Source: Planctomycetes bacterium syqfu
GTDB lineage: Bacteria > Planctomycetota > Phycisphaerae > Phycisphaerales > Phycisphaeraceae
Direction of reading: 5' to 3'
Length of the DNA stretch: 64,000 bases
Assembly (NCBI GenBank): GCA_020974905.1
Contig: CP087563.1
Location: 6,386,001-6,450,000 of the forward strand
Each line of letters opens with the position of its first letter. The first letter of the stretch is position 1. A model generated the notes under the pieces. The model was not told the origin of the DNA, searched no databases, and was given only the letters and a program-made list of their open reading frames with translations. Below are positions 32,398 to 51,354 of the stretch, in pieces. Both the position numbers and the translations under genes were made by a program.

Positions 32398-32515
32398 AGC
32401 ATCGGCAAACTCCGTATGGTCTGCCCACAAACAAGCTTCACTGCAAACAAGGTCTCATAATATCGCTGGATAATTAGCTTGCTCGGTGATCTGCGTGAGA
32501 AGGTGTTTGACAGAT

Positions 32516-32544
32516 TTGACCTTGCTGGCAAAATCAGCGACAAT
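32516..32544 (+). promoter_or_regulatory. Promoter of tRNA-Leu(CAA)
   Basis: -35 TTGACC (32516-32521) and -10 GACAAT (32539-32544) are separated by 17 bases. Predicted start is a few bases before the tRNA at 32557. The -10 is weak (four of six). Confidence 0.55.
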
Positions 32545-32556
32545 TCTCCGACTCTT

Positions 32557-32642
32557 GCCGGAGTGGCGGAATTGGCAGACGCGATGGATTCAAAATCCAT
32601 TTCGGTTCACCCCGAGTGTGGGTTCGAGTCCCACCTCCGGTA
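32557..32642 (+). tRNA. tRNA-Leu (anticodon CAA), insertion site of the mobile element
   Basis: An 86-base class II tRNA. Acceptor GCCGGAG pairs with CTCCGGT (G1-T72 wobble), discriminator A73 at 32642. Anticodon stem ATGGA/TCCAT with loop TTCAAAA gives anticodon CAA. A long variable arm precedes T-arm GTGGG TTCGAGT CCCAC. CCA is not encoded. Its 3' end from 32618 forms the left copy of the att core, so the gene stays complete after integration, but its terminator now comes from the element. Confidence 0.95.
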
Positions 32643-33891
32643 CTTCACTATGAATGTAGTAGCTCGCAATAACCCGCAAGTTGTTGCGAGTTTCTGCATT
32701 TATAGGCGAATCACCTTTTTTGATTTTTCTCACTTGCGAGCCATTTCCGGTGCTTTCGTGCAGCTTCTGCGCTGCATTTTGCGCCGCCTCATCTGATGCT
32801 GCTCGTTGGAAATGTTCATCTGTCACCTGCAGATAATGCTTCGCTGCTACAAGCTCGCTGTTACCGATCCATGAGGTTACAACGTGCAGGGGATAAGTTT
32901 CTGCCAACTCAGTCTCACGCGTGCTGCGAAGGTTTTGAAAGAGCTTGGGCCAAGGTGTATAACCAGCCTGTTGAATGATCCGATTAAATTGCGTTCGCAA
33001 GTTGGAATTGTTGTCACGATATCGCGTGATGATATATTCAACACCACCATCAGCTGATTCGAAAGCTTCCAGAAGAGCAGGTCGAAGTTCAGGGAATAGT
33101 GGTATCGTTCGCGAAGAACCGCCTCCATGGTGTTCAGTCTTTGGTGAAGGCACACGAAGGCAATTTTCCTCCCAGTTGATGTCTGACCATTTCAGAGCCA
33201 GAACCTCTGATGGGCAACGTAAACCACCATATCTGGCAAGCAAAATGATCAATTGCCACTGCTGATCAGGGCAATGTTTCAAAATGCGATCAATCATCTC
33301 ACGCTTGACGAAAAAGAACCGTTCATGATTGGCCTTGACACTGGCAGGCAGGATCTTAAATGGATTGTCTTTTGCCAACCCACGTCGAATGGCTGCATCA
33401 TAGAACTGACGGATTCGTCCATATGCCTTGCGACGGGTGTTATCAGCGCGGCCACTCTTGACCATATATTGATGGAAACCTTCTGCATCACCTTCTGTGA
33501 TGTCTCGTAGGGGAGTATCAGGTTTAAAATGTTCAAGTAAGTAAGACCTTGCTCGATTCATGTTGGTTCGAGTGCTGAGTTTAATATCCATACGGCCATC
33601 AATGTATGAGCGTGTGAATACACCAATAGTTGCTGATCCGCGGCGTTGCACTAGCCCAACCTTGAACAATCTGTCGTATGTGTCATCATCTAATGACATT
33701 AACCACAGCGTTGTTTCATCCGAAGGGGCATGGCCTATATTCTTGGCTGAGACCAGATCCTCCAGTTTGACCTTGAAAGCCAAGGCATGGCGTTGGGAAA
33801 CTTTACCCAGGCGTATGGTTTTACAATTGCCTTGGCTGTCGATGAAGAGGATGCGCCGGCGTCCGTTGGGGTCATTGCTGATACTTGCCAT
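32590..33891 (-). CDS. int: Tyrosine recombinase (island integrase) whose frame runs through attL
   Basis: A 433-residue integrase. The N-terminal core-binding (SAM-like) part spans about residues 80-190. The catalytic domain has Arg I in ARYGGLRCPSEVLALKW, box II as FQNLRSTRETEL (the usual His replaced, as in many planctomycete integrases), WIGNS, and the nucleophile Tyr in VAAKHYLQVTDEHF. The last residues VPEVGLEPT are translated from the 28-bp att core and the final LGVNRNGF from the host tRNA-Leu. In the excised circle the same frame would continue into the 60-codon tail left at 51143-51326 (about 485 residues in total). It acts on att sites in tRNA-Leu. SD GGAAGG lies 11 bases upstream. 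Confidence 0.93.
   Translation of the reverse strand: MASISNDPNGRRRILFIDSQGNCKTIRLGKVSQRHALAFKVKLEDLVSAKNIGHAPSDETTLWLMSLDDDTYDRLFKVGLVQRRGSATIGVFTRSYIDGRMDIKLSTRTNMNRARSYLLEHFKPDTPLRDITEGDAEGFHQYMVKSGRADNTRRKAYGRIRQFYDAAIRRGLAKDNPFKILPASVKANHERFFFVKREMIDRILKHCPDQQWQLIILLARYGGLRCPSEVLALKWSDINWEENCLRVPSPKTEHHGGGSSRTIPLFPELRPALLEAFESADGGVEYIITRYRDNNSNLRTQFNRIIQQAGYTPWPKLFQNLRSTRETELAETYPLHVVTSWIGNSELVAAKHYLQVTDEHFQRAASDEAAQNAAQKLHESTGNGSQVRKIKKGDSPINAETRNNLRVIASYYIHSEVPEVGLEPTLGVNRNGF
32618..32645. other. attL, left attachment core
   Basis: 28 bases identical to 51327-51354, covering the tRNA-Leu T-arm, acceptor 3' strand and discriminator plus CTT. Flanking bases differ on both sides (T versus A on the left, C versus T on the right), which defines the core. 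Confidence 0.92.
32663..32693 (+). terminator. Element-borne terminator downstream of tRNA-Leu
   Basis: CTCGCAATAAC (32663-32673) pairs with GTTGTTGCGAG (32680-32690) with one wobble. TTT follows, then TTCTGCATTTAT-like sequence similar to that after the chromosomal terminator at 51357-51396. It replaces the original tRNA terminator. Confidence 0.7.
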
Positions 33892-34043: not shown

Positions 34044-35207
<1,164 letters not shown>

Positions 35208-35490: not shown

Positions 35491-35910
35491 TTATGGTTCT
35501 GTTGCTTCACCATCATCATCACTAACTGGCGTAATGGATTCGATCGTCAAACCATCGTCAGCAAACACTTCTTGCAATTGTGTTACGAGTGCCATGCAAT
35601 CAGGGCTAATGTTGCCTTCGTGCAACATCTTCAGTTCATCTTTACTCCATAAAGCACGACTGGGTTCTGACACTGACAAAACTGACAAAACCTTTTGTCG
35701 GGCATTGGGAGATGTTTTTGAGTTTATGGACAATGCTTCAATGATTGCATGCTTGTTGTCTTGCAGGCGACGAGCCAAAGATGGCGTCATCTTTGATTTG
35801 GGGTGATAACGGAGTTTCTTGCCGTCGGCCACAAGCGTGATCCCACATTCATTGACAGCTTTCAAAATGTCTTGAACAACATGTGAGTACAAAGCGGTTG
35901 ACTGATTCAT
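35491..35910 (-). CDS. TubC N-terminal docking domain-like small protein
   Basis: A 139-residue protein. Residues 10-60 (ILKAVNECGITLVADGKKLR, MTPSLARRLQDNKHAIIEAL) match the TubC_N pattern: helix, beta hairpin with DGxxLR, helix with P-x-L-x-x-x-L-x-x-x-K. This module is known as a docking domain in synthases but is also common in plasmid and island replication loci. The rest is acidic and probably disordered. The start overlaps the stop of the DUF3987 gene by four bases (ATGA), so the two are translationally coupled. Role on the element unknown. Confidence 0.72.
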   Translation of the reverse strand: MNQSTALYSHVVQDILKAVNECGITLVADGKKLRYHPKSKMTPSLARRLQDNKHAIIEALSINSKTSPNARQKVLSVLSVSEPSRALWSKDELKMLHEGNISPDCMALVTQLQEVFADDGLTIESITPVSDDDGEATEP

Positions 35911-37442
35911 AACTCACCCCAATCATTTTCGTCCACGATAGGAGTGGAAGTGGAGGTATTACCACCCATATCAATGTCAGACGACGGTTCCGGTAGTGAT
36001 TCATTACTTTCTTCAACCAGCACGAACCGTTTGGATGGACGACCACCATTGGGGCTCTGCGTGGAGGATTCCCATCGACCAAAGCCAGCTTTTACCATTT
36101 TGTTCAATTCGACTTCTGCATCATCAGCTGTGCGATGAGTACGCTGACGTTGCCATTCGCGTATTGTGACTGTGCCTCCTTATTGCTTGATTTTTCCAAC
36201 AAGCTGACGCTGTTCGCGATCCTCTTTCGAATCTTCCAGAGCTTGATAGACACGCCTGGCTTCAAAGCCGAACCATCGCGATAGCACAATCCCAGCGGAG
36301 ATGCTGACTGCATCAATCTCGTTGCCGACGGTTTCGTCAGATGCTTGACGTAGCATGTGTATGACCAGAGCAATACGGGCTGCATAGCCTTCGAGTTTGG
36401 CCCATGCCGCAGCGTGATCACCCGTTAATTCGTTGGCGATCTCATTGTGCTCGTTGTAAAACTTGATCCAGATCGCTTTGGCTTGAGGTGTCAGTTTGAG
36501 AATAGCTGGCTGAGGTTTCGCATCAGTGTCATATGCCTATGGTAAATCGATAAGCCTTTTATAGATGTTACTCATCTGCGATTCGGTGTCAGGATGAAGA
36601 TCATCTTCAGTCCATGTTTTGGGTTGCCTGGGAGGCATCACAAGCAGAAGCCTGGCGAGTAAGCCATTGTCTCTGTTGTCTTGGCCAATGGCACGGCAGA
36701 GGATTCCAGGCTGAATCCCACCGATGATCGAAACAGCCGCACGTGGTACATGGATCTTGGCTGTGGTTTTGCGATCCACAATCAGTGGACGACCACCAAA
36801 CAACTCCAGCCACTTGGCTGATTCACCATGTTTGCTGCCATTGGAATAACGATCGAAGTCTAACCAGCTTGTCAGTTCATCCCGACTGAGAAGTAAACCT
36901 ACTGGGTTCTTCTGTAACAGCATGGCGATGGCTTCTATGGTTGCATCGTCCGTTACGTACCTATCACAATTCGGTGCTTTGGGCTCTTCGGGGGGATTAG
37001 TGTTGCTTTTTGAGTGTTTCCACTCAGCGTGCTTGCGTTCGTATTCAAGCAGATCACGCTGGTGTTGGTTCATTTGAGCTTCATAAGCTTCCAACAATTC
37101 GCTTTGACAGCGTTTGATGGCTCGTAGTGCGACATCCATCGCAGGGCTTTTTGCGCTGCCAGATTCGCCCACGATAGCGCCCCAGAGAATTGAGGGTTCT
37201 TTCCAGGCATGTTTGAGCTGGATTTGCCGCTTGTTCCCGATGAGAGAAGCGGAGCCTACAAGCAGTGGCAAAGCCACATAAGCGTGGTCACATCCGATTG
37301 CCTGGGCGGATTCAGTAATAAATTGCTTGACAGGGGCAGGCAAGAGATGGGTTGGGAAGGGGCGATATGAGATGATGTTTTGATCCTTGATGTTATGAGT
37401 GAATATTGGCGTAATAGGTGTTGGATTGGAGATATCTGTCAT
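35907..37442 (-). pseudogene. DUF3987 helicase/primase-like gene with two in-frame stop codons
   Basis: The frame from ATG 37442 (four-base ATGA overlap with the HTH gene) codes 301 residues to TAG at 36537-36539 (RLIDLP-stop). It continues in the same frame with AYDTDAKPQPAILKLTPQAK and on through SRWFGFEARRVYQALEDSKE to a TAA at about 36179-36181 (GKIKQ-stop). It then resumes as GGTVTIREWQRQRTHRTADD and GGRPSKRFVLVEE to the final stop at 35907. All three pieces align in order with DUF3987 proteins, 511 codons with stops. The N-terminal part keeps GESGSAKSPAMDVALR, a P-loop-like motif. Single-base changes explain both stops (Tyr to TAG, Lys to TAA). The family lies at replication loci of islands. 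Function is probably lost unless stops are read through. Confidence 0.8.
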
Positions 37443-37660
37443 TGGAGAGATTTCCCCTTGCAGTTGGTTTTGCATTTGGCAACGTAATCGCGCAGATCCG
37501 ATGGATCGATCCGAACATTCCGCCCAAACTTGACCGCTGGGAGCTCGCCCTGGTCGACCAATGACCAGATCGTCCGCTCAGTGACACCGAGAAGCTCGCC
37601 TGCTTGCCGGTAGGTCAATAGGTGTTCAAGTTGATGTGTAAGAGATTGGCAGTCAGCCAT
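37439..37660 (-). CDS. Excisionase-type helix-turn-helix protein (HTH_17)
   Basis: A 73-residue protein. LLTYRQAGELLGVTERTIWS and LVDQGELPAVKFGRNVRIDP form the MerR/Xis-like winged helix: a helix-turn-helix and a wing whose RxVRI residues contact DNA. Length and position upstream of a DUF3987 gene are typical of planctomycete and phage-like islands, where such proteins act as excisionase or replication-control factors. The stop overlaps the DUF3987 start. An array of GGGGAT-type repeats lies upstream and may be its target. Confidence 0.87.
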   Translation of the reverse strand: MADCQSLTHQLEHLLTYRQAGELLGVTERTIWSLVDQGELPAVKFGRNVRIDPSDLRDYVAKCKTNCKGKSLQ

Positions 37661-39240: not shown

Positions 39241-39317
39241 GTGAGTGATTGAGAATCCGATCTGAAGTTGTCACGTTGCCATCGTGATTGTCGACGGTTC
39301 GAGTCCGTTCACCCGCT
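39241..39317 (+). tRNA. Degenerate tRNA-Gly(GCC)-like element (probable pseudo-tRNA)
   Basis: The 3' half is a perfect tRNA: anticodon stem TCACG/CGTGA with loop TTGCCAT (anticodon GCC), five-base variable region, T-arm GACGG TTCGAGT CCGTT, acceptor strand CACCCGC and discriminator T. The 5' acceptor GTGAGTG matches with one A-C mismatch. The D-arm is irregular, several bases too long and lacks the GG of the D-loop. Canonical tRNA-Gly would start GCGGGTG. It is followed by a strong terminator, so it may still be transcribed. Confidence 0.5.
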
Positions 39318-39322
39318 CTTTG

Positions 39323-39360
39323 ACAACGGCTGACAGCAAATGTCAGCCGTTGTTTATTTT
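39323..39360 (+). terminator. Terminator after the tRNA-Gly-like element
   Basis: ACAACGGCTGACA (39323-39335) pairs perfectly with TGTCAGCCGTTGT (39341-39353) around GCAAA. TTATTTT follows. Confidence 0.85.
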
Positions 39361-39725
39361 GCGCACGGGGCGAGAGTTAGGGTGATTTCGGGTTGGATCT
39401 TGGGTGTGTTTCTTTTGTCAGTTCTAGACAGTGGAAGTCTGTTAAAGACTGTGGTTTGGCAGCATTTCTGGCAGTAGGGCGGTTTTCTGGCACCGAATTT
39501 GACACTGAAACATGGCTAAATAAGTCGTGGTTCGGGTATGGCCATTTTAATCATGTACTTGAGTGAACCGAGCGCATTCTGATGATGTTGCATGTCAGGG
39601 GCTGATTCTTGAAAAATTAGACGTCAATGACGAACAACTGAATTTTAACATCAGAAGTGTCATAGGTAACAAATAGAGGGGCTTGCGTTTTTCGCCACCT
39701 GGAAGGTGGGGCAGGGCAGGACAGG

Positions 39726-42700
39726 TCAGCGTTTTAATGCACTTTGATCTAACGATTCATCAACAAGGTAGAGCTTGATTCGATTGTCTTGTTTCGTTAG
39801 TGACATGTTTAATATATTGGTTGATACATTGTTTGCATATGTGCTTTGTTGGGACAGTGTCGAGGCCAACGCTTCAATATTAGACATTTTTTTTGTGCCG
39901 GACTCAGTTCGCAAGTTCAGACCTGGGTTGTTTGTTGTCGCGGCACTGGTTCGATGGTTCCATGTGATAAAAATATCTTCTAAGTCTACAAAGCCGTCTT
40001 GATTGATATCAAACGCGTTGTTTTCTGATACTTGATAACCGAGTGAGCTGCGATGGTTCCAGATGGAGAAGACATCAGCGATGTTGGCGTGACCATCACC
40101 AGTCACATCACCAATGGCATTGCCAAAAAAGAAGATTTCACTTTCAGATAAGCCTGTTGTATCGTTGGCCAACATATGTACTTTCAACCATTGATTGGAA
40201 ATGGCATCTTTTTTCCATATCAGTACAATGCGGTCTGAGCCATTCACACCTGCTCCGGGACGTATGTATAATTCTGGCGTGGGCGATTGTTCCCATGTAT
40301 CCGAATCGGTTTGGTTGCCAATCTGGAATTCAAAGTCGTTGTATACAGACAGGTCACGCGCCTCGGCTAAATTTGCCACATCAATGAATAAGCCAGTGAT
40401 GCCATTGACCACATTGGTATAGTTGGTTTGATCAGGCGTTTGTCCAGGACGCAACAGGACTTTACTCATGTCAATCGCGTTGTCGTCTGCATCGTTTATC
40501 GCAGCATCGTTACCATCCCAATGTGTGTTGTTATGGAAGACATTCTGCGCCAGTATCTGAGTTGGTGGCTGATAGGGTTTAGGATTGAATCGATACACGG
40601 TATCTGCATCTCCAGTGACCCGCAGATAGTACGTACCAGCATTGAGATTGTACCTTCCCTCAGTGGGAGTAATGATCTGCTGTCCATCAGTAATTGCCAG
40701 TGTGACATCTGATGTTTTGAGTTCAAAAATAAGCTCGTTATCTTCTAAAAGAGTAAAGGTGTACCAATTTTCATCATCCTCATTGAGGATGCGGCCGGTG
40801 ATCCATGTTTGCCTGTTCAATGGATCGATTGGTATTGCATCGAGCATCTGATCAGACGACCGGGTGGTTCCATTGATCAAGTAGATTTCGCCATGGTTCG
40901 AACCTGTGCTGCTATTGCACGGAGCACTGATGAGCAAATCCGAAAAGCCATCGCCATTGACATCGCCAGCCAAACACACTTCATCACCCAATTGATCTTC
41001 ACTTGCCAGTCCCGTGAAGACTGCGCCGTTGAGTGTTCCCAATGCGATGGCCGCAAGGTCTGTTTGTACATCGAATGATTGTTTTTGGCCATAGATCAGA
41101 TAGGTCTTCCCGGATGTACTGCCATTGGGATCTGCGTAAAATGCACCAATCAAGATGTCTGCTAACCCGTCACCGTTAACATCACCTGCACTGGAGACAG
41201 AATTCCCGACGCGATCGTAAGACCTTTCGCCCTTAAACGCGACAATATTGGTCATGTCTGCCAATTCATATTCACCAGCAAAAGTATCTTGCTGACCATA
41301 AATCAAATAGGTCGCGCCAGCGCCGTAATTGACCCCATATGCACCAATAAGAAAATCATCACAGCCATCACCATTGACATCGCCAGCATTAGAAAGGTCA
41401 ATACCTACGACATGGTCTGTGTAGGCTCCGTTAAACGCAGCGCCGTGCAATTCGCCTGTTAACAGGTCTTCGAGCATGAAGTTGCCAAACAGATCTTGTT
41501 TGGAGCCGTAGACCAGGTAAACCTGCCCGGAACTATAGCCATTGACATCACTGGCGTAGGCACCGATGAGAATGTCGTCAAAGCCATCATCATTGACATC
41601 ACCAGCAGAAGAGACAGCTGATCCTGCACGATCGAAGTTATAGATCCCCTCGAAGGTGGCGATGCGATCAAGTGTTGAAAGATTGACAAGGCCGTTGTAA
41701 TGATCGGCCGAACCGTAGACCAGATATGTTTTGCCTGGAGATGCGCTGGAGCTTGGAATGGCTCCGATGAGTATGTCATCCAATCCATCGTTGTTCACAT
41801 CGCCAGCTTGGGCTATGTCAAAGTAGAAAGCTCCGTCAATCAATGCATTCGAATCGTCAGTAACCAACACTGCAGCATCAATGTTGCCAGATGTCACGTC
41901 CGCCAATGAAACCATGCCGGATAAACCTGCTTCTGAACCGTACACAATATAGACTGCGCCCGAGTGCCCATCAATTTGAACGGATCTGCTGGCAATGAGA
42001 ATATCGTCGTAGCCATCATGGTTAATATCACCCGCGATGGCAACACTATCGCCCAAAAAATCGTAGCTTGGACCTAATGACCGGGTACCGCTTGATGTGT
42101 CTGTTGGGTCGGTGTAAACCGTTGCGTCTTCGTTGAGCTGGGCAGTTGTAAAAACTGCGCCTGGAATGGTTTTGCCGATATCTGATAATTTGAGACGTCC
42201 GGTGAAGCCATCAGACGAGCCATAGATCAGATAGGTCAGGCCAGCATAGGTGCCAAAGGTATCTGAGAGTGGGACACCGATAAGCAGATCATCATAACCA
42301 TCACCATTGACATCGCCTGCGCCGGATATTTTTTCACCTGCGTTGTAGTCCCTGTCAGCCCCATCGAAAGCCGCACCATCCAATGAGCCGTCAAACAGTT
42401 CGTCTAAATCAATCACGCCGTCAATGCGATCGCGAGAAGCTTTAACCATGCCAGCATCAATGACCGTCGTAATCTGGCCAGCATTAAGCACGATGTCCTG
42501 TGTTCGGCCAGTGAGTGGATCGACGTCACTGTCCATGTTTGATTGATCACCCACATGCATTGGGGCAAACTGATAATCGGCGGGCAGCTCAAACGCAAGC
42601 TGATACTGGCCAAGATCCAAATCGGCAAAGGCGTATCGACCTTGAGCATCGGTTGTCTGCGTTGCTACTACTTGCCCCTGGTCATCCAACAAGTTGACGG

Positions 42701-45700
42701 TGACATCGGCAGCATTAGTCAATTCGGTCACATCACGTACGCCGTTCTCATTCAGGTCATACCAGACCATGCCACTGATTGCCTCAAACGATCGCCCATA
42801 GATGACAACGGTCTGCCCGCTATCATTCGCATCAGGATCGCCAAGCAGCAGATCATCAAGTCCATCCTGATTCATATCTCCCAACGCGCTCAGTGCATAT
42901 CCACTACCATTGAACACAGTAGCTGGGATCGAACCGTTGTAGGCTTCTGATAAATTCACTTCGCCCGTCAAATAGTCTGCCGAACCATAAATCAGAAACG
43001 TTAATTTATCGGAGTTCGAGCCGATGAGTAAATCCGCTAATCCGTCGCCATTGACATCCCCCGCAGCAGAAACGGATCGTCCTGCATTCATGTACGATTC
43101 ATTACCGTAAAACACAGCACCATTCAAACTGCCGTAATTAATCCGGTCCAGCCTGTTCGTACCCACTAACTGTTCTGAACCACCATAGATTAAATATGCT
43201 CCACCATTCTTATAGGCGCCATGGGTGATATCACCGGCACCGATGAGTAAATCATCAAAACCATCACCATTCACATCGCCCAGACCAGCAACTGAATCGC
43301 CAACTTGACCATTATCAAACGTTCCCTGGAATATGGCAGCATAATTATCCATGTACATTCCACTGGGCAGCATGTCTGCTGAACCGTAGACCAGATAGAC
43401 TTTGCCCTTGTCATTACTGGAAGAAAAACTTGAATCAGCATGAGGTGCGCCAATAGCAAAGTCGTCAAAGCCATCAGCATTGATATCGCCAACACCTGAA
43501 ACGGAACTTCCCAAAGCTGCATACCGATTGTTGCCGATCAAGTGTACGGCGTACTGTCCAAAGACATCCTCAATTTCAATCTCACCATGTAAACCGGAAG
43601 CCGAACCATAGATCAAGTAGACCGAGCCATTGTTATTTCCGGAAGTACAACCAATGAGGATATCATCAAACCCATCAGCATTCACATCACCGGCGCTGGC
43701 GACCGATCGTCCGGAATAGGAATAGTGTTGGCCGTAGATCAAAGCACCATCCAACCTGCCGTCGACCACGCCGTCTAGGTCAATCAATCCTACCAAACCA
43801 TCCGCAGAACCATAGAGCAAATAGGTTTGCCCGGAGTTGCCATCGTAATGGATATCGCTGCCGTTGTAGGGTGAATCGCCTGCAATGTCAGCGATGAGAA
43901 TATCGTCAAAACCATCGCCATTAAAATCACCCGCTGCACTGACCTTGCTGCCGGGATTACCATTGTTTGTCCCGCTGTAAAGTATCGCTCCACGGATTGT
44001 GCCATCAAGAATATCACCAAGATCGATTTGCCCGTTGAGCGTTTGGCCGGTGCCGTATACCAGATAGACCTTACCGCCACTATCGGTTTGTCCGGGTGCG
44101 TTGATCAGAAAGTCTGTCAATCCGTCGCCGTCAACATCGCCAGCAATGCTCACCGCGGTTCCTGCCCGAACGCCCCAACTGTCACCTATGAATTCAACGC
44201 CGGGGACGATGCCTTGCGGGATTGCATCAAGATCAACTTCACCAGTGACGTTTGAGTCAGGTACTGCAACAAGTCCTGCGTCGATATCTTTGAGATGCAG
44301 ACCGTTTGTCAGATGATAGACAACGGTTTGTTTCGTAGCCGGATCGATGTCGTTGTCATAGGTTGCCTGATCTGTTTGCGTATGGAGCGTGAATTCAATA
44401 TATAAAGGAAGATCAATTGAGATGGCATACTCGCCTGTTAGCATCCCTGTAAAAAGGTATCTTCCATCACTTTCGGTCGTGAATGTCTCAACGACATTTG
44501 ACTGAGCATCGAGTAGTTTCACTTTGAATCCATCAGCTCCGCCGGCTTCATTCTCATCACGAATTCCATCACCGTTGAGGTCGAACCAGACGGTGCCTGA
44601 GATGGATTGAGTGGGTTGGCCGTAAAGTAGATAGACTTGGCCTGCATCAACATTGCTTCCCTGGGCAGAGATCAAAAAGTCATCGTAACCGTCTTGATTC
44701 GCATCTCCGATTGGCGCGACATCACGTCCAAGTTCATCACCACGACCACTGATGCCATGCAAGATCGCGACATTGATTCGTTGACGATCACTGGCCATGT
44801 TGAGATTGACTTGTCCCTGCAACTGATCCGAGCCATAGAGTAGGTAAGCCAGGCCTGATCCGGACATTGAAGATGACCATGAGTTGTAGGAAGAGACGGC
44901 ACTGCCAAAGAGTAAATCGTCATACCCATCACCATTGACATCACCTGCAGATGAGACAGCCAATGTCGCTTCGTTATCATATCCTGCTGCCAGTATTTTC
45001 ATGCCTTTAGTTGGTGCATTGAGTAAAGATTTGATTTGTGTTTGACCGGAAGGTAAATCAAGGCTGCCATAGATCAGATACACCGTGCCCGTCAGCCACG
45101 AATCGCGATCGACAAGTGTTTGGCCAATGAGCATGTCTGCAATCCCATCACTGTTGACATCGCCGGCAGCAGCGAGGGTATAGCCCAGGTAATCGTCCTC
45201 TTCACTGCCGTCGATTGCCAAGCCGTTGAGTGTGCCGTCTGTAACACCTTCAAGGTTAAGAGTACCTTGGTAATGCGTTGCCTGTCCATAAAGCAGGTAT
45301 GCCCGGCCACTCGCTTCGCCGTTGGTATTGGATTGTCGCGCACTGAACATCAAATCGTCATAGCCATCACCATTGACATCACCTGCGGTCACAGCCATTT
45401 CACCGAGCCTGTCATCAAATTGACTGGTGGTGAAGACCGCGCCAGTGATCGAACTTGATTCGATGTTCGCCAGATTAATAAGGCCTGTCACAGCGTTGGC
45501 TTGACCATAAATCAAGTAAGTCTTGCCTGTGTTCTCAAATGTTGTCGTTGTTGGCAAAGTACTGACAAGTATGTCTTCAAAGCCATCGCCATTCACATCA
45601 CCTGCTAAGGCGACATGTGTTTGCTGTTGAACATCTGTTGCTGCATCAGTGAATTGGATACCAGCCAATGTCCCTGCTGCAATGTCTGAAAGGAGAATCT

Positions 45701-48700
45701 GGCCGGTTAAACCATCAGCAGAGCCGTAGACTAGATAGGCTAATTCGGTGGTCTGCCCGTCGAGATTGGTATCGGTGATGCTGATGAGAATGTCATCAAA
45801 TCCATCATCGTTAATGTCACCAGATGATGAGACTGCCTGGCCGATCCGTTGCCCATCGGATGTCCCGTTGAAAACAGCACCGTGAACTTCGCCGGTGATT
45901 ATGTCGGCCAAATCATACGTGCCATACCAATCACGGTCTGAACCGTAGAGCAGATAGGTCTGCCCATCGTGGGTGTTGCCTTGTGTATCTGTGACGTCAT
46001 AAGCACTGATCAACAGGTCCAGGTAGCCGTCCCCATTGACATCACCTGCAGTACTGATTGATGCACCTGCATGATTGGGGCCATACAGTGTTGAGCCATC
46101 AATGCCATTGAAAATTGCTCCTGCAAGTTGACCATCAGCAATTTCAGTCAAGTCTATTTCGCCAGACAGTCCGCTGCCTGAAAGTGCAACCAATCCGGCA
46201 TCCACGTGATACACATTGGTGATATCCGTAAAATCCATCAGAGCAGTCTTGCCCGTTGCATCCAGGTTTATATTACCTGCGTGTGATTCGGCAAATGTAT
46301 AGCCTTGAGGCAAATCAAATCGGATGGCATATTCGCCTGATTCAAAGCCAAAGAATTGATAGTAGCCTTGATCGTCAACATATCTTGATGCAACTTCATT
46401 GCCTTGGTCGTCCAATAGATAAACCTTCATATTCGGACATTCCGCAGACTCGTGATCCGAATACAAACCGTCTTGATTTAAGTCATACCAGACATGACCA
46501 GAAATCGACCGATAGCCCTGACCGTAAATGATAAAACCTGCGCCTGAAGATGTCCCATTGGGGTTGGCATTGGGTGCGCCGATTGAAAAATCGTCGAATC
46601 CATCCTGATTGAGATCTCCAAGTGGCGTGATTGGTGACCCCAGAGAATAACTGTATCCATGCCAATCGATAATAGCGCCCGGCTTATAACCATGCTCAAT
46701 ACTATTTACTGTGATTTCTTGCTCGATTCGGTTTGATGAGCCATAGATCAGATACACCTTGTGATCGTCGTCAAAATCAGCGGGGCTGATGAGCAGATCG
46801 TCATAGCCATCACCGTTGATATCGCCAGTGCCTACAGCTACAGCAGCACCATACACATCATCATCTTCAGTAAAAATTGGCGTTATGTCCGTGCCAATTG
46901 CAATGGAGGGTGGAGTGTTTTGCGAACCGTAAATCAGGTACGTTTGACCAGGTATGGAGACCAAAAGCTCATCTGCACCATCGCCGTTGACATCGCCTGC
47001 AAATTGAAATATAGCATATTCAACATCATCGGGGTCTATTGCATCAAGCCTCATACCGATTTCGGGGACAGGTTGGTCAAAGTTGATCTCCGAAGACCAA
47101 CCCTCCGAAGAACCATACAAGAGATAAACCTCACCGTTTGCTTGATAACTCGGATATTGATCCTGCACGCCGACAATAACCAGATCATCGAATCCATCAC
47201 CATTAAAATCATTTGAATTGACGTTCGATTGCCACCAGCTGCGTATCCGACCATTGATCGTTGTCATTGGTAAATCAGTGGTGCTCGCAAGGTGATAGGT
47301 ACCTTCGTAGATTTCTTCTCTGCCGAAAATGGCATAGACTTGGTGATCGAATTTACTCGTAGTGATGACCATGTCATTGAGGCCGTCCCCGTTGATATCA
47401 CCAACTGCATTGACGATTGCTCCCAGGTCATCAGCATTGTTTGAGCCTGCAAAAATCGCACCTTCAATCATCTGTGAGTTGATGGCTTGATCAATAACAA
47501 TCTGCCCGGTCAATTTCTCAGATGAACCATAAATCAGGTAAACCTTGCCCAAGCCATCTGAAGCTCCAACAGCACTGATGAGTAGATCGTCAAACCCATC
47601 GCCATTGACATCACCCACGCCTCTTGATGCATAACCGAGACGATCATCTTCGTCGGCTCCAAGTAAGACTGCAGCTTCTAATTGGTCATTGAGAATATTT
47701 GCCAGTTCATACTCACCATGCAACAATTCCTGCGAACCGTAAATCAGGTAGGCAGTACCTGAATCCGAGCCGTTTGTATCTGCATAGGGAGCTGTAATTG
47801 TCAAATCCAGATAACCGTCAGCATTGAGATCACCAACTGAATAAATCTTCCCTGCATGGTCGTTTGTATCGGCACCATTAAAAACGGCACCGACTTGAAG
47901 ATCTTGATAGATATCCGATAGATCAAGATTGCCCAATATCGCATTACGATTGGATAAGCTCAACAAGCCAGCATGAATGGGGGTTGCGCCCTGGTTGGGG
48001 CTGATTGTGATGGTGTCCGATTTACCAGTTAGTGGGTCAACATCACTATCCAGTTCCGGGTTGCTGCCTTGCGCTTTGGCGGTCAGGGTGTAGCCCAGGG
48101 GCGTCTGGATGGAAACAGTGTAGGTGTTGCCCGTCGCCAGTGTGTTGAATCGGTAGTCGCCATGTTCATTCGTAGTGCGAGTGGCGATGGTTTGGCCGTT
48201 CTCATCCAGTAATGCCACGACGATGTTGGCAGCATCTGTTTCATGAGCAGATTCGACACCGTCAGCATCAAAGTCATACCAGAGATGTCCGCAGAGTGTT
48301 TGGAAGTCAGAACCATTGATCAGGTAGACTTTCCCGGAACGTTTGCCAACCACATCGTACATAGGGTCTGCCACAAGCAGATCGTCATACCCGTCATGGT
48401 TCAAGTCACCCACCGCAGCTGCAACCGATCCAAAGGCATCGCCAGCCATACCAAAAGCTGATCCGACCGTTGTGTCGCCTTGCAGTTTGACTCCCAATAA
48501 TTCGCCTGTATTGATACCTGATAGTTCAATCAATCCTGAAAAATGTTCTTCCTGACCATAGATCAGATAACACAGGCCAGGCTCCGTGTCACTGGGCGCA
48601 CCAATGAGAAAGTCATCAAACCCATCACCATTGACATCACCAGCAGCACTGAGTTTCTGTGCGTTTTGTGTTTCATGAAACTCGGCTCCATCCCAGTCAC

Positions 48701-49940
48701 CGGGTTGAAGATATGACATTCTGAATGAATCACCAAGCCCGTCTGCCGAGCCATAGAACAGATAAGTTGAACGCCTGGCTGAACCGTAACGCGATCCGCC
48801 CATTGAAAAGAGAACATCATCAAAACCATCGCCATTGACATCCCCAGCAGAGGCAATGGATCGCCCCAGTCTGTCGTTATAGCTTTGGCCAACAAAAAGC
48901 GTGTGATTGACTGATTCAAGGCTATTTTCCTGCGACAGGTCATAATAGCCTTGGAGGTTTGATGCTGTTCCGTAGATTAAATACGCGCTCCCAAGATCCC
49001 AAACAGTATAAGGGGCATACTCAAAACCGGGCGTACTGATCATGAAATCGGATCGGCCATCACCATTGACATCGCCCATGGATGAAACGGTCAACCCATT
49101 TCTGTAAACATCTGTCAAACCGGCAAAGACTGCGCCACGCACAGGACCGGTTGATTGCTGCCCAAGCTCGATATTGCCCGTCAACGCATCCGCAGAACCG
49201 TAAATCAAAAAGACTTTGGAAGTCACAGAGGAGTTATATGGTTCTGGAGCTGAAATCAGCAGGTCGGCAAAACCATCACCATCAACATCACCTGCAGCTT
49301 CAACGGTATAGCCGATTTGATCCCGCTCTTGTGTGCTGTAAAACATCGCACCATCAACAAGGCCTGCCTGAACATCAGAAAGGGTGATTACACCGGTCAG
49401 ACCCGCTTGCGAACCATACAACAACAATGCCACACCTGAGTCAACATTGATATTAGTGCGCCCAGGATTGCCGATCAAAATATCATCGAATCCATCACCA
49501 TTCACATCACCGACACCTGCAAGTCTCGTTCCCACCGAGTATAAATCTGTACCTCCACTGATGATGGCACCTGCAACATGGCCATTCTCAATATCCTGTA
49601 ACTGGATGGTGTCGGTAAAACCGTTCTCTGAGCCGTAGAGCAGGTATGCTTTGTTGTGGCTTGTGCCAATGAGCAAATCGGTATAGCCATCGCCATTAAC
49701 ATCCCCGGCGTTGGCTATGTTGATGCCAGCGTTTTCATTGGGCTCTCTGCCTGTGAAGACCGCACCTAGGGTGACATCTGTAATGGACATGTCGCCCACC
49801 AAAGGTGTACTGCTGAGCAGAACACGTGGTTCAAGGCGTTCGAAAGCCCAATCCGTTTTGAATCGATGGTGAATGGGACGATGTTTGGCTTGTCGAATGC
49901 GTTGAAGCAAGCGGACATACAACTTGTTCAAACACTTCAT
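39726..49940 (-). CDS. Giant FG-GAP/SdrD-B repeat surface protein with LEPR motif and dockerin-like end
   Basis: About 3404 residues from ATG 49940. An upstream in-frame TTG at 49961 with GGGG before it would add seven. The basic N-terminus leads to FERLEPRVLLSS, the LEPR-XLL export-related motif of planctomycetes. Five blocks of FG-GAP (integrin alpha beta-propeller) repeats follow, each repeat carrying a calcium loop such as GDVNGDGYDDLLI and a closing VYLIYGS strand. Blocks are separated by four SdrD-B/Cna-B type domains near residues 550, 1150, 1780 and 2390 (ISGHVWYDLNQDGLYS and variants). Near 3060 is a PPC-like beta domain. At about 3280-3340 lie two dockerin-like calcium loops (GDVTGDGHANIADVFSIWNH, FDINQDGFVDLEDIFITWNH), then a short tail. 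It is probably secreted, calcium-stabilised and adhesive. It looks AT-richer than the chromosome. It is cargo of the island. Confidence 0.92.
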   Translation of the reverse strand: MKCLNKLYVRLLQRIRQAKHRPIHHRFKTDWAFERLEPRVLLSSTPLVGDMSITDVTLGAVFTGREPNENAGINIANAGDVNGDGYTDLLIGTSHNKAYLLYGSENGFTDTIQLQDIENGHVAGAIISGGTDLYSVGTRLAGVGDVNGDGFDDILIGNPGRTNINVDSGVALLLYGSQAGLTGVITLSDVQAGLVDGAMFYSTQERDQIGYTVEAAGDVDGDGFADLLISAPEPYNSSVTSKVFLIYGSADALTGNIELGQQSTGPVRGAVFAGLTDVYRNGLTVSSMGDVNGDGRSDFMISTPGFEYAPYTVWDLGSAYLIYGTASNLQGYYDLSQENSLESVNHTLFVGQSYNDRLGRSIASAGDVNGDGFDDVLFSMGGSRYGSARRSTYLFYGSADGLGDSFRMSYLQPGDWDGAEFHETQNAQKLSAAGDVNGDGFDDFLIGAPSDTEPGLCYLIYGQEEHFSGLIELSGINTGELLGVKLQGDTTVGSAFGMAGDAFGSVAAAVGDLNHDGYDDLLVADPMYDVVGKRSGKVYLINGSDFQTLCGHLWYDFDADGVESAHETDAANIVVALLDENGQTIATRTTNEHGDYRFNTLATGNTYTVSIQTPLGYTLTAKAQGSNPELDSDVDPLTGKSDTITISPNQGATPIHAGLLSLSNRNAILGNLDLSDIYQDLQVGAVFNGADTNDHAGKIYSVGDLNADGYLDLTITAPYADTNGSDSGTAYLIYGSQELLHGEYELANILNDQLEAAVLLGADEDDRLGYASRGVGDVNGDGFDDLLISAVGASDGLGKVYLIYGSSEKLTGQIVIDQAINSQMIEGAIFAGSNNADDLGAIVNAVGDINGDGLNDMVITTSKFDHQVYAIFGREEIYEGTYHLASTTDLPMTTINGRIRSWWQSNVNSNDFNGDGFDDLVIVGVQDQYPSYQANGEVYLLYGSSEGWSSEINFDQPVPEIGMRLDAIDPDDVEYAIFQFAGDVNGDGADELLVSIPGQTYLIYGSQNTPPSIAIGTDITPIFTEDDDVYGAAVAVGTGDINGDGYDDLLISPADFDDDHKVYLIYGSSNRIEQEITVNSIEHGYKPGAIIDWHGYSYSLGSPITPLGDLNQDGFDDFSIGAPNANPNGTSSGAGFIIYGQGYRSISGHVWYDLNQDGLYSDHESAECPNMKVYLLDDQGNEVASRYVDDQGYYQFFGFESGEYAIRFDLPQGYTFAESHAGNINLDATGKTALMDFTDITNVYHVDAGLVALSGSGLSGEIDLTEIADGQLAGAIFNGIDGSTLYGPNHAGASISTAGDVNGDGYLDLLISAYDVTDTQGNTHDGQTYLLYGSDRDWYGTYDLADIITGEVHGAVFNGTSDGQRIGQAVSSSGDINDDGFDDILISITDTNLDGQTTELAYLVYGSADGLTGQILLSDIAAGTLAGIQFTDAATDVQQQTHVALAGDVNGDGFEDILVSTLPTTTTFENTGKTYLIYGQANAVTGLINLANIESSSITGAVFTTSQFDDRLGEMAVTAGDVNGDGYDDLMFSARQSNTNGEASGRAYLLYGQATHYQGTLNLEGVTDGTLNGLAIDGSEEDDYLGYTLAAAGDVNSDGIADMLIGQTLVDRDSWLTGTVYLIYGSLDLPSGQTQIKSLLNAPTKGMKILAAGYDNEATLAVSSAGDVNGDGYDDLLFGSAVSSYNSWSSSMSGSGLAYLLYGSDQLQGQVNLNMASDRQRINVAILHGISGRGDELGRDVAPIGDANQDGYDDFLISAQGSNVDAGQVYLLYGQPTQSISGTVWFDLNGDGIRDENEAGGADGFKVKLLDAQSNVVETFTTESDGRYLFTGMLTGEYAISIDLPLYIEFTLHTQTDQATYDNDIDPATKQTVVYHLTNGLHLKDIDAGLVAVPDSNVTGEVDLDAIPQGIVPGVEFIGDSWGVRAGTAVSIAGDVDGDGLTDFLINAPGQTDSGGKVYLVYGTGQTLNGQIDLGDILDGTIRGAILYSGTNNGNPGSKVSAAGDFNGDGFDDILIADIAGDSPYNGSDIHYDGNSGQTYLLYGSADGLVGLIDLDGVVDGRLDGALIYGQHYSYSGRSVASAGDVNADGFDDILIGCTSGNNNGSVYLIYGSASGLHGEIEIEDVFGQYAVHLIGNNRYAALGSSVSGVGDINADGFDDFAIGAPHADSSFSSSNDKGKVYLVYGSADMLPSGMYMDNYAAIFQGTFDNGQVGDSVAGLGDVNGDGFDDLLIGAGDITHGAYKNGGAYLIYGGSEQLVGTNRLDRINYGSLNGAVFYGNESYMNAGRSVSAAGDVNGDGLADLLIGSNSDKLTFLIYGSADYLTGEVNLSEAYNGSIPATVFNGSGYALSALGDMNQDGLDDLLLGDPDANDSGQTVVIYGRSFEAISGMVWYDLNENGVRDVTELTNAADVTVNLLDDQGQVVATQTTDAQGRYAFADLDLGQYQLAFELPADYQFAPMHVGDQSNMDSDVDPLTGRTQDIVLNAGQITTVIDAGMVKASRDRIDGVIDLDELFDGSLDGAAFDGADRDYNAGEKISGAGDVNGDGYDDLLIGVPLSDTFGTYAGLTYLIYGSSDGFTGRLKLSDIGKTIPGAVFTTAQLNEDATVYTDPTDTSSGTRSLGPSYDFLGDSVAIAGDINHDGYDDILIASRSVQIDGHSGAVYIVYGSEAGLSGMVSLADVTSGNIDAAVLVTDDSNALIDGAFYFDIAQAGDVNNDGLDDILIGAIPSSSASPGKTYLVYGSADHYNGLVNLSTLDRIATFEGIYNFDRAGSAVSSAGDVNDDGFDDILIGAYASDVNGYSSGQVYLVYGSKQDLFGNFMLEDLLTGELHGAAFNGAYTDHVVGIDLSNAGDVNGDGCDDFLIGAYGVNYGAGATYLIYGQQDTFAGEYELADMTNIVAFKGERSYDRVGNSVSSAGDVNGDGLADILIGAFYADPNGSTSGKTYLIYGQKQSFDVQTDLAAIALGTLNGAVFTGLASEDQLGDEVCLAGDVNGDGFSDLLISAPCNSSTGSNHGEIYLINGTTRSSDQMLDAIPIDPLNRQTWITGRILNEDDENWYTFTLLEDNELIFELKTSDVTLAITDGQQIITPTEGRYNLNAGTYYLRVTGDADTVYRFNPKPYQPPTQILAQNVFHNNTHWDGNDAAINDADDNAIDMSKVLLRPGQTPDQTNYTNVVNGITGLFIDVANLAEARDLSVYNDFEFQIGNQTDSDTWEQSPTPELYIRPGAGVNGSDRIVLIWKKDAISNQWLKVHMLANDTTGLSESEIFFFGNAIGDVTGDGHANIADVFSIWNHRSSLGYQVSENNAFDINQDGFVDLEDIFITWNHRTSAATTNNPGLNLRTESGTKKMSNIEALASTLSQQSTYANNVSTNILNMSLTKQDNRIKLYLVDESLDQSALKR

Positions 49941-50246
49941 GGAACGGCTGGCGTAAGACAATATAATTTACCCCGGAAGAAATTAAGTGTGATGGTTGAC
50001 TTTTTACTCATGTAATTCATGTATCAAGAGTATAATTCGTTAAAGGCAGCTGGCACAAAACCTGGGTTGCACTAACGAGCCACACCCGTCAGGAAGTGGA
50101 TATCCGAAAACACAACACCTGTCCGCTTCCTTACAGTCTTGGTCGTGGCAAGTATCTTTGAAGAATCACAACCCGCATTAGTGTGACAAGCTCTTTACTT
50201 ATTATAGTTGATGTGTGCTAATTTTCATATCGCGAAGGCTACAACT
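49941..50246. other. Upstream region of the giant gene
   Basis: No gene seen. A TATAAT on the minus strand (50202-50207) could be a -10 element of a promoter with a long leader, but no matching -35 was found. Confidence 0.3.
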
Positions 50247-50537
50247 TCATGCAATTTCTGTGATGGAATTGAAGTGCGTAACGATTATGATTTCTCGTGA
50301 ACGCATGTAGCGGCGCAGCAGATTGTTGTGCTGGTTTGGCAAGTTTTTCTGATCCTTGAAACGCTGATTTTGCTCAATTCCGTTCAGTAAACGCGTAAAG
50401 AGCATGCGGCAGCGTTCACATTGGATTGCTTTGTTCATTGGATGTGCGGATTTTGATCGGGTTTTATGCTGCAAGACGGTGTACTTTGTCTTTGAGCACT
50501 TTCCGTCTAAATGACCTTGAAATAGATGGAGATTCAT
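50247..50537 (-). CDS. Doubtful small frame with Cys pair
   Basis: A 96-residue basic frame containing AIQCERCRMLFTRLLN. The CxxC could bind metal, but only one pair is present and no family is recognised. It is on the island's coding strand. No clear ribosome site. It may not be a gene. Confidence 0.22.
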   Translation of the reverse strand: MNLHLFQGHLDGKCSKTKYTVLQHKTRSKSAHPMNKAIQCERCRMLFTRLLNGIEQNQRFKDQKNLPNQHNNLLRRYMRSREIIIVTHFNSITEIA

Positions 50538-50581
50538 TCGCTACCTGTGTAGCTGTGCATCTATAAAAAATCTGTATTTGA

Positions 50582-50953
50582 CTACTCAAGACGCGTTTGC
50601 TGTCGATCAAGGAAACATAACACATCATCCAGCCTGAACCAGACACGGCGACCAATGCGGACGGTTTTCAGTCCCATACTTCGATAACGTTGGATGGTTT
50701 TACTAGGGAATTTAGTCTTGCTTTTGTTGAGGCGAAAGAAGGCAATCACTTCATCTAGACTCATGAGAAACGGGGCAGGAGTTGTTGTTCCATCGGGGTG
50801 TCGGATGACAACCAGGGGAATGCTGTGATAGCGATCGCCGGTATTTGATTGGCGTGTAGAACCAACAGGCGGATTGTCGCATTGTTTTGCCGGCGGATTT
50901 TCGAGGGGGGGATTGATTGAAAATGAATGGTGATCGTCCCCCCGTGCCCCCAT
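50582..50953 (-). CDS. Helix-turn-helix (excisionase-like) protein of the island right end
   Basis: A 123-residue protein. The first 55 residues are polar and probably disordered (NPPLENPPAKQCDNPP). The second half, MSLDEVIAFFRLNKSKTKFP, SKTIQRYRSMGLKTVRIGRR and VWFRLDDVLCFLDRQQTRLE, fits the MerR/Xis-type HTH_17 fold: DNA-recognition helix then basic wing and strand. It lies 370 bases inside attR, a usual place for recombination directionality factors. The start is uncertain: a second frame beginning at ATG 51009 with AAAGGA upstream meets this one at G-runs near 50940-50955, so an upstream N-terminus could be joined by a one-base shift. Confidence 0.65.
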   Translation of the reverse strand: MGARGDDHHSFSINPPLENPPAKQCDNPPVGSTRQSNTGDRYHSIPLVVIRHPDGTTTPAPFLMSLDEVIAFFRLNKSKTKFPSKTIQRYRSMGLKTVRIGRRVWFRLDDVLCFLDRQQTRLE

Positions 50954-51142
50954 GTCCTGCCCGGCAGTTTCATAATGGGTCGATGGCTGGTGTGATTTGT
51001 GGTATTCATCGATTTGTTCCTTTTCTTAAAATGCTGATCACGTTTCGGTAAAGCACATAACAGCTATCGCTATGATCTTGCTGGCCCGTTATAGGTTTTG
51101 TCAGTTTTGTCAGTGTCAGTAGGGGTAGTTGTTCACGAAACA

Positions 51143-51326
51143 TCATTGAGCATCACATGATGCGTTGACCATTGCGATGATTCCTTGCCGGACAGCTATA
51201 GGGAGAGTGTCCCATTTTTCAACGATATTGATCAGTTCAGGTGGCAAAGTGACATGTGCTGCAGCTTGTGCGCCGGATTTTGCGCCACCTGTTTCCCCAA
51301 CCGCTATATTTTTCGAGGAATTTGAA
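51143..51326 (-). other. Stranded C-terminal tail of the island integrase
   Basis: On the minus strand, reading through the attR core in the integrase frame (VPEVGLEPT) gives 60 further codons: SNSSKNIAVGETGGAKSGAQ, AAAHVTLPPELINIVEKWDT, LPIAVRQGIIAMVNASCDAQ, stop at 51143. The helix pattern (P-E-L-x-x-I-V-E-x-W, L-P-x-A-V-R-x-G-I-x-A-M-V) is like terminal tails I associate with planctomycete integrases. In the integrated state it has no proper start except a frame opening outside the island at 51400. In the circle it would be fused to the integrase. Confidence 0.75.
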
Positions 51327-51354
51327 GTGGGTTCGAGTCCCACCTCCGGTACTT
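51327..51354. other. attR, right attachment core
   Basis: 28 bases identical to 32618-32645, that is the tRNA-Leu T-arm and acceptor 3' strand without the rest of the tRNA. It is followed directly by the original chromosomal terminator. Confidence 0.92.

Follow-up and report, generated by a model that had tools for sequence, protein, structure and literature searches.

We describe a giant gene of a planctomycete, contained in the 64,000-nt stretch of DNA analysed here (the window), which is a real, lineage-variable cargo of an island integrated at a tRNA-Leu gene. With a probability of roughly 0.7, judged from sequence comparisons, the island is composite, the giant gene residing in a cassette of tRNA-Gly type that was captured by a tRNA-Leu element; the gene is thus probably nested within a second type of element. 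This composite structure is a point absent from the earlier reading of the same DNA (hereafter the sequence-only reading), and the composite origin together with the parent array at tRNA-Gly, rather than the domain families of the protein, is the interesting part of the finding.

The island is bounded by a 28-nt exact repeat, GTGGGTTCGAGTCCCACCTCCGGTACTT, which starts at 32618 in the 3' end of the tRNA-Leu gene and again at 51327 (28 of 28 nt); the window has no other match of this kind (Table 1), and a search of the border repeats against Rfam matched the tRNA alone. The giant gene occupies 10,236 of the 18,709 bp of the island (55%), so the sequence-only reading was correct in assigning it more than half of the element, and the 28-nt borders and the integrase at the tRNA gene agree with the view that it is the main cargo of a mobile element delimited by tRNA sequence. 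The same tRNA-Leu site is empty in two congeners, G001 and G003, where sequence equivalent to window positions 32513-32645 joins the right flank from about 51526/51618; in G001 the flanks are 87-95% identical to the window. The island is therefore real and missing from both genomes, and the empty sites with their intact flanks rule out the reading of the giant gene as a core gene, with an orthologue at the same locus of relatives and no island borders. A search of 80 relatives for the giant protein gave no orthologue, only partial matches of 37-54%, and no relative of the gene was found in 84,980 species genomes or in IMG/VR.

The integrase of the island is intact, with its arginine- and tyrosine-containing motifs in place, and its stop falls within the tRNA-Leu gene. 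Integrases of relatives, 46-58% identical to it, are located at tRNA-Glu, -Leu, -Val and -Ile genes, and a pair formed by an integrase and a DUF3987 gene recurs across the order beside tRNA-Val, tmRNA and tRNA-Leu. The DUF3987 frame of the island is broken: past a change of phase and an additional stop it can be followed downstream to about 35.8 kb; intact open frames, mostly of about 490-930 codons, exist among its relatives. The broken DUF3987 gene and the IS110 insertion make the present-day autonomous mobility of the island doubtful, and judging by these lesions it may now be immobile on its own. No relaxase or transfer genes of the ICE/IME kind were found among the island ORFs with Pfam and NCBIfam, and the island backbone gave no match on plasmids. 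As a possible tycheposon or phage satellite (tRNA site, tyrosine recombinase, partial replication gene), the island has the tRNA site and the recombinase, and DUF3987 is present but frame-broken. A perfect 27-nt inverted repeat, CTGACACTGACAAAACTGACAAAACCT, is located at 35667-35693, in an ORF behind DUF3987, and at 51093-51119, upstream of the small HTH gene.

Table 1. Features of the tRNA-Leu island and of the giant gene (window positions).
Feature	Position	Strand	Evidence
tRNA-Leu (CAA), integration target	32557-32643	+	ARAGORN; Rfam tRNA E 2.1e-10
attL, 28-nt repeat of tRNA 3' end	32618-32645	+	exact repeat
Tyrosine integrase, 433 aa	32590-33891	-	PF00589 E 2.8e-11, PF13102 E 1.1e-9
IS110-family transposase, later insertion	34044-35207	-	NF033542 E 1e-59
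DUF3987 protein, 312 aa, frame-broken	36537-37475	-	PF13148 E 1.6e-51
ORF, 115 aa	37989-38336	-	no Pfam match
ORF, 160 aa	38396-38878	-	no Pfam match
tRNA-Gly-type att: tRNA-Gly(GCC) 3' half from anticodon loop + hairpin terminator	39285-39371	+	alignment
ARM, element-end arm of tRNA-Gly elements	39372-39520	+	similarity to array copies
Giant LEPR-XLL / FG-GAP / SdrD-B / dockerin-like protein	39726-49961	-	ORF, 3411 aa
Dockerin-I-like pair of calcium repeats	39972-40112	-	residues 3284-3330, PF00404 E 1.1e-4
Propeller 5, 7 blades	40869-42446	-	calcium loops
SdrD-B spacer 4	42447-42779	-	residues 2395-2505, Pfam
Propeller 4, 7 blades	42780-44273	-	calcium loops; structure model with spacer 4
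SdrD-B spacer 3	44274-44603	-	Pfam + unit alignment
Propeller 3, 7 blades	44604-46181	-	calcium loops
SdrD-B spacer 2	46182-46505	-	Pfam + unit alignment
Propeller 2, 7 blades	46506-47972	-	calcium loops
SdrD-B spacer 1	47973-48296	-	Pfam + unit alignment
Propeller 1, 7 blades	48297-49805	-	loops at residues 87-519
LEPR-XLL motif	49794-49850	-	residues 38-56, NF012209
R2 end-repeat of tRNA-Gly elements	50306-50500	+	own-genome matches
Small putative HTH protein	50582-50953	-	excisionase-like by position only; HTH_17 E 0.24, not significant
attR, second 28-nt repeat copy	51327-51354	+	exact repeat

The evidence for a second element type comes from the sequences on either side of the giant gene. 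A weaker repeat from the att search (39293-39320) is part of a tRNA-Gly(GCC) 3' half with its terminator, adjoined by about 150 nt of further shared sequence, the whole stretch extending over 39274-39519. Positions 39270-39390 are 97% identical to the end of the tRNA-Gly gene in the same genome (3218123-3218240), the whole stretch matches about 20 sites of an array at that gene, mostly at 80-87% identity and with E down to 5e-74, and the ARM is about 70-82% identical to copies at 18-19 sites of the array between 2.56 and 3.22 Mb. On the opposite side lies R2, with 11 other matches in the genome, all on the minus strand, which is the strand of the array, and all within 2.27-3.37 Mb. R2 precedes att copies at several array places and in G003 (by about 310-320 nt at 3013 kb and in G003); many array units have no recognisable R2, which makes it a typical and not a universal component. 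The att and ARM (39285-39520) lie 205 nt past the 3' end of the giant gene and R2 345 nt past its 5' end, in the order and orientation of a unit of the array and of G003 (att and ARM, cargo, R2, next att), and the block from att and ARM to R2 measures 11.2 kb, within the size class of integrase-less units. With att and ARM on one side and R2 on the other, the giant gene looks like an integrase-less tRNA-Gly cassette. The GC content is 0.477 in the cassette, 0.47-0.49 in other parts of the island, 0.516 in the flanks and 0.501 in the tRNA-Gly array.

A second, right-hand tRNA-Gly att was not found in 50250-51340, which leaves the capture route unproven and the right border of the cassette approximate; as the far att is missing, the block is to be regarded as cassette-derived and not as an intact CIME. 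Its absence also favours an alternative in which the island is a simple tRNA-Leu island with the giant gene as ordinary cargo, the att with ARM and the R2 being unrelated relics of separate events, and so does the location of giant LEPR-XLL/FG-GAP homologues elsewhere in the genus, which sit outside Gly cassettes. We consider this alternative unlikely, since the relics would have to flank this one gene in the order and orientation of the array, and R2 has its other matches only in the array region. In the tRNA-Gly array we found no copy of the giant gene and nothing closely related to it, nor did we find this tRNA-Leu element in uninterrupted form.

A different arrangement, accreted and not nested, would result if the tRNA-Leu integrase had used the Gly att as a junction, leaving a 6.7-kb Leu element beside an 11-12-kb Gly-derived block. 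The Gly att and the Leu att have an 11-nt T-arm sequence in common, GGTTCGAGTCC (at 39296 and 51330), and accretion of tandem elements is already known (PMC5704250). However, the internal site keeps the whole tRNA-Gly 3' half, the terminator and the ARM, of which a Leu crossover would leave far less, and the Gly block separates the small HTH gene and attR from the rest of the Leu element; we therefore regard accretion as quite improbable. In the preferred, composite reading, an integrase-less tRNA-Gly cassette (a CIME-like unit) carrying the giant gene would have entered the tRNA-Leu element, perhaps by insertion at a secondary tRNA-like site by the Gly integrase or perhaps by recombination, and would then travel, or have travelled, along with that element. 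To the left of the internal att, 11 nt (GTCACGTTGCC) agree with the 5' anticodon stem of tRNA-Gly, which is not the case in the array copies; this match would fit insertion at a secondary site (attB) or could be due to chance, and is only suggestive.

The presumed source of the cassette, the chain at tRNA-Gly(GCC), extends over 0.73 Mb of the chromosome (2491388-3218225), about one tenth of its length; its 24 att copies all have the same orientation and lie downstream of the only intact tRNA-Gly gene found in the region. A search with the att pattern gave about 20 other chromosome places, all of them, save one distant partial match, in the 2.49-3.22 Mb region and on the same strand. Between the 24 copies lie 23 intervals. 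Ten of these are long (37-99 kb) and have exactly one integrase each, which is split in the outermost of them; the other thirteen, of 3-19 kb, have none. In representatives of the long intervals we identified portal, head-protease, terminase, primase and Sak4 genes; several of these families recur 6-8 times, and such shared phage-type genes mark the long intervals as prophage-like. One prophage-like interval contains a reverse transcriptase with an HNH domain, of group II intron type (2921838-2923505). The cargo examined in short intervals comprises GH95, GH29, GH20, GH42, GH5 and sulfatase genes, with regulators of GntR type (confirmed) and LacI type (by appearance). A prepilin-type gene (FTLIELL), in many cases accompanied by a regulator resembling GntR or LacI, is found within 8 kb downstream of 84% of the array ARMs, against a random expectation of 27%. 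Two closely similar 6-kb cassettes without integrase occupy different positions of the chain (2892399-2898441 and 2961481-2967521), a similarity that suggests cassette duplication.

The same att, with at most one mismatch, is present in three congeners, in 17 copies in G001, 4 in G003 and 1 in G002. In G001 the copies are often located at contig ends, and short-read assemblies of the genus thus hide the chain. Neither the tRNA-Gly att nor the Gly integrase was found in viral contigs. In the literature covered, no paper on such arrays in Planctomycetes was found, and wider searches gave nothing relevant.

At another tRNA gene of G001, a homologue of 5334 aa with FG-GAP repeats starts just past the tRNA-Met gene (L145:10627-11065). 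Three congeners lose their synteny at the 3' end of this tRNA-Met gene, identity to G001 up to that point being 95% for the genome under study and 78% for G003, and the former has cassettes of regulator, prepilin and sulfatase type there instead of the FG-GAP homologue. No att repeat was found at this site in G001, and the recombinase beside the homologue belongs to the conserved part common to all three genomes.

With its large domain arrangement, the giant protein adds a new member to domain families that are already known. Its ORF begins with TTG; the first ATG (residue 8) is at 49940, the coordinate given in the sequence-only reading, and would yield 3404 aa. Pfam matches comprise FG-GAP in 24 stretches (E 2.8e-180) and SdrD_B in four (E 7.6e-90), and the N-terminus scores 22.2 bits against a cut-off of 17 for the LEPR-XLL family NF012209 (NCBIfam). 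There are 35 calcium loops (DxNxDGxxD; 32 strict matches and three from a relaxed pattern), arranged as 7+7+7+7+7 and split by the four SdrD-B spacers at about residues 556, 1153, 1787 and 2395. At the C-terminal end Dockerin_1 (PF00404) reaches 22.7 bits, just under its cut-off of 22.9, and two repeats are visible in the sequence. The previously described layout of five propeller blocks, four SdrD-B spacers and a dockerin-like end is thereby confirmed.

The same reading had also proposed that the blocks arose by repeated duplication of one unit, and this part of it held up only weakly. In an alignment of the four propeller-plus-spacer units and the fifth propeller, identity to the first sequence is 34-41%. 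Copying of whole blocks should make blades most similar to those that hold the same position in other blocks; the observed excess is slight (90.8 versus 86.3 score units for same and different positions, permutation p = 0.014) and is driven by blades 1-3. This register signal is too weak for a clear whole-block duplication, which we rejected; block duplication in the giant gene is likely, but would be old or blurred by blade exchange.

An AlphaFold2 model of propeller 4 with spacer 4, for which the remaining units of the protein served as input alignment, reached pLDDT 80.5 and pTM 0.82; the model of the C-terminal module (pLDDT 45) was too poor for use. In a Foldseek search of the PDB, the top matches listed for propeller 4 with spacer 4 were integrin alpha headpieces (best E 3e-18), with TM about 0.5 over the whole model, possibly because the angle between propeller and Ig-like domain differs. 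Like the integrin headpiece, each such unit places an Ig-like domain after seven calcium-loop FG-GAP blades, but the giant protein has five propellers in one bacterial chain with SdrD-B spacers, about 16% identity, and no sign of a beta subunit. The resemblance in the model is one of layout, and adhesion itself is inferred. The protein would be exported, with five rigid, Ca2+-stabilised seven-bladed propellers held apart by SdrD-B Ig-like domains, and would act as a multivalent surface or matrix adhesin. It has SdrD-B calcium-binding spacers in common with the MSCRAMM Sdr proteins of staphylococci (SdrC/SdrD) but differs from them in having no SD repeat region and no LPXTG end, and in its planctomycete LEPR-XLL and dockerin-like ends; assignment as an MSCRAMM Sdr adhesin was rejected (140.8 bits against an SdrD cut-off of 2500 in NCBIfam, no LPXTG in the C-terminus).

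The dockerin-like repeats, and the sugar-degrading character of the tRNA-Gly array cargo examined, could instead suggest that the protein is not an adhesin and serves as a scaffold or enzyme-docking protein, or as a carbohydrate-binding surface protein of a polysaccharide-degradation machinery. We find this rather doubtful, because no cohesin was found in the genome with PF00963, a search that gave matches in a control genome, and because the propeller and Ig-like layout fits integrin alpha headpieces. A role of the dockerin end in a scaffold, for which the sequence-only reading left room, is therefore not supported, and a cohesin-based scaffold is unlikely. For the adhesin that we favour, a lineage would have or lack a surface component according to whether it carries the island.

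The analysis connects a lineage-variable giant protein of surface type with a definite means of movement. It also brings to light, in a large-genome member of Phycisphaeraceae, a single tRNA gene at which prophage-like elements and sugar-degradation cassettes follow one another in an ordered chain of unusual length. Tentatively, and at somewhat less than even odds, the genus may run a phage-built cassette system, in which prophages and cargo cassettes devoid of an integrase gather head to tail at one tRNA-Gly gene, over 0.7 Mb, the near end of each cassette being marked by att and ARM, and from which unrelated integrases can carry cassettes such as that of the giant propeller gene out again to other tRNA sites; such a system would be a large-cassette analogue of a superintegron, devoted to polysaccharide and surface functions. 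If cassettes do move from the chain to other tRNA islands, much of the polysaccharide and surface repertoire of the genus could be exchangeable as discrete units.

Among known systems, the closest in design to the island is CGI48 carrying GI21 at tRNA-Trp in Shewanella putrefaciens, a composite island of which both elements excise experimentally (PMC8978831). Both are tRNA-integrated islands with a captured second island of different att specificity; the inner unit here differs in being an integrase-less cassette with one recognisable att, known from sequence alone. For the array, the comparison is with CIMEs and with the accretion of ICEs, IMEs and prophages in tandem at one att (PMC5704250). 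The integrase-less units of the array likewise keep their att sites and are stacked in one orientation at one tRNA; the difference is one of scale, as the array spans 0.73 Mb with 24 att copies and 10 prophage-like intervals that have an integrase, and of location, the giant-gene cassette having been relocated, on the composite reading, to another tRNA.
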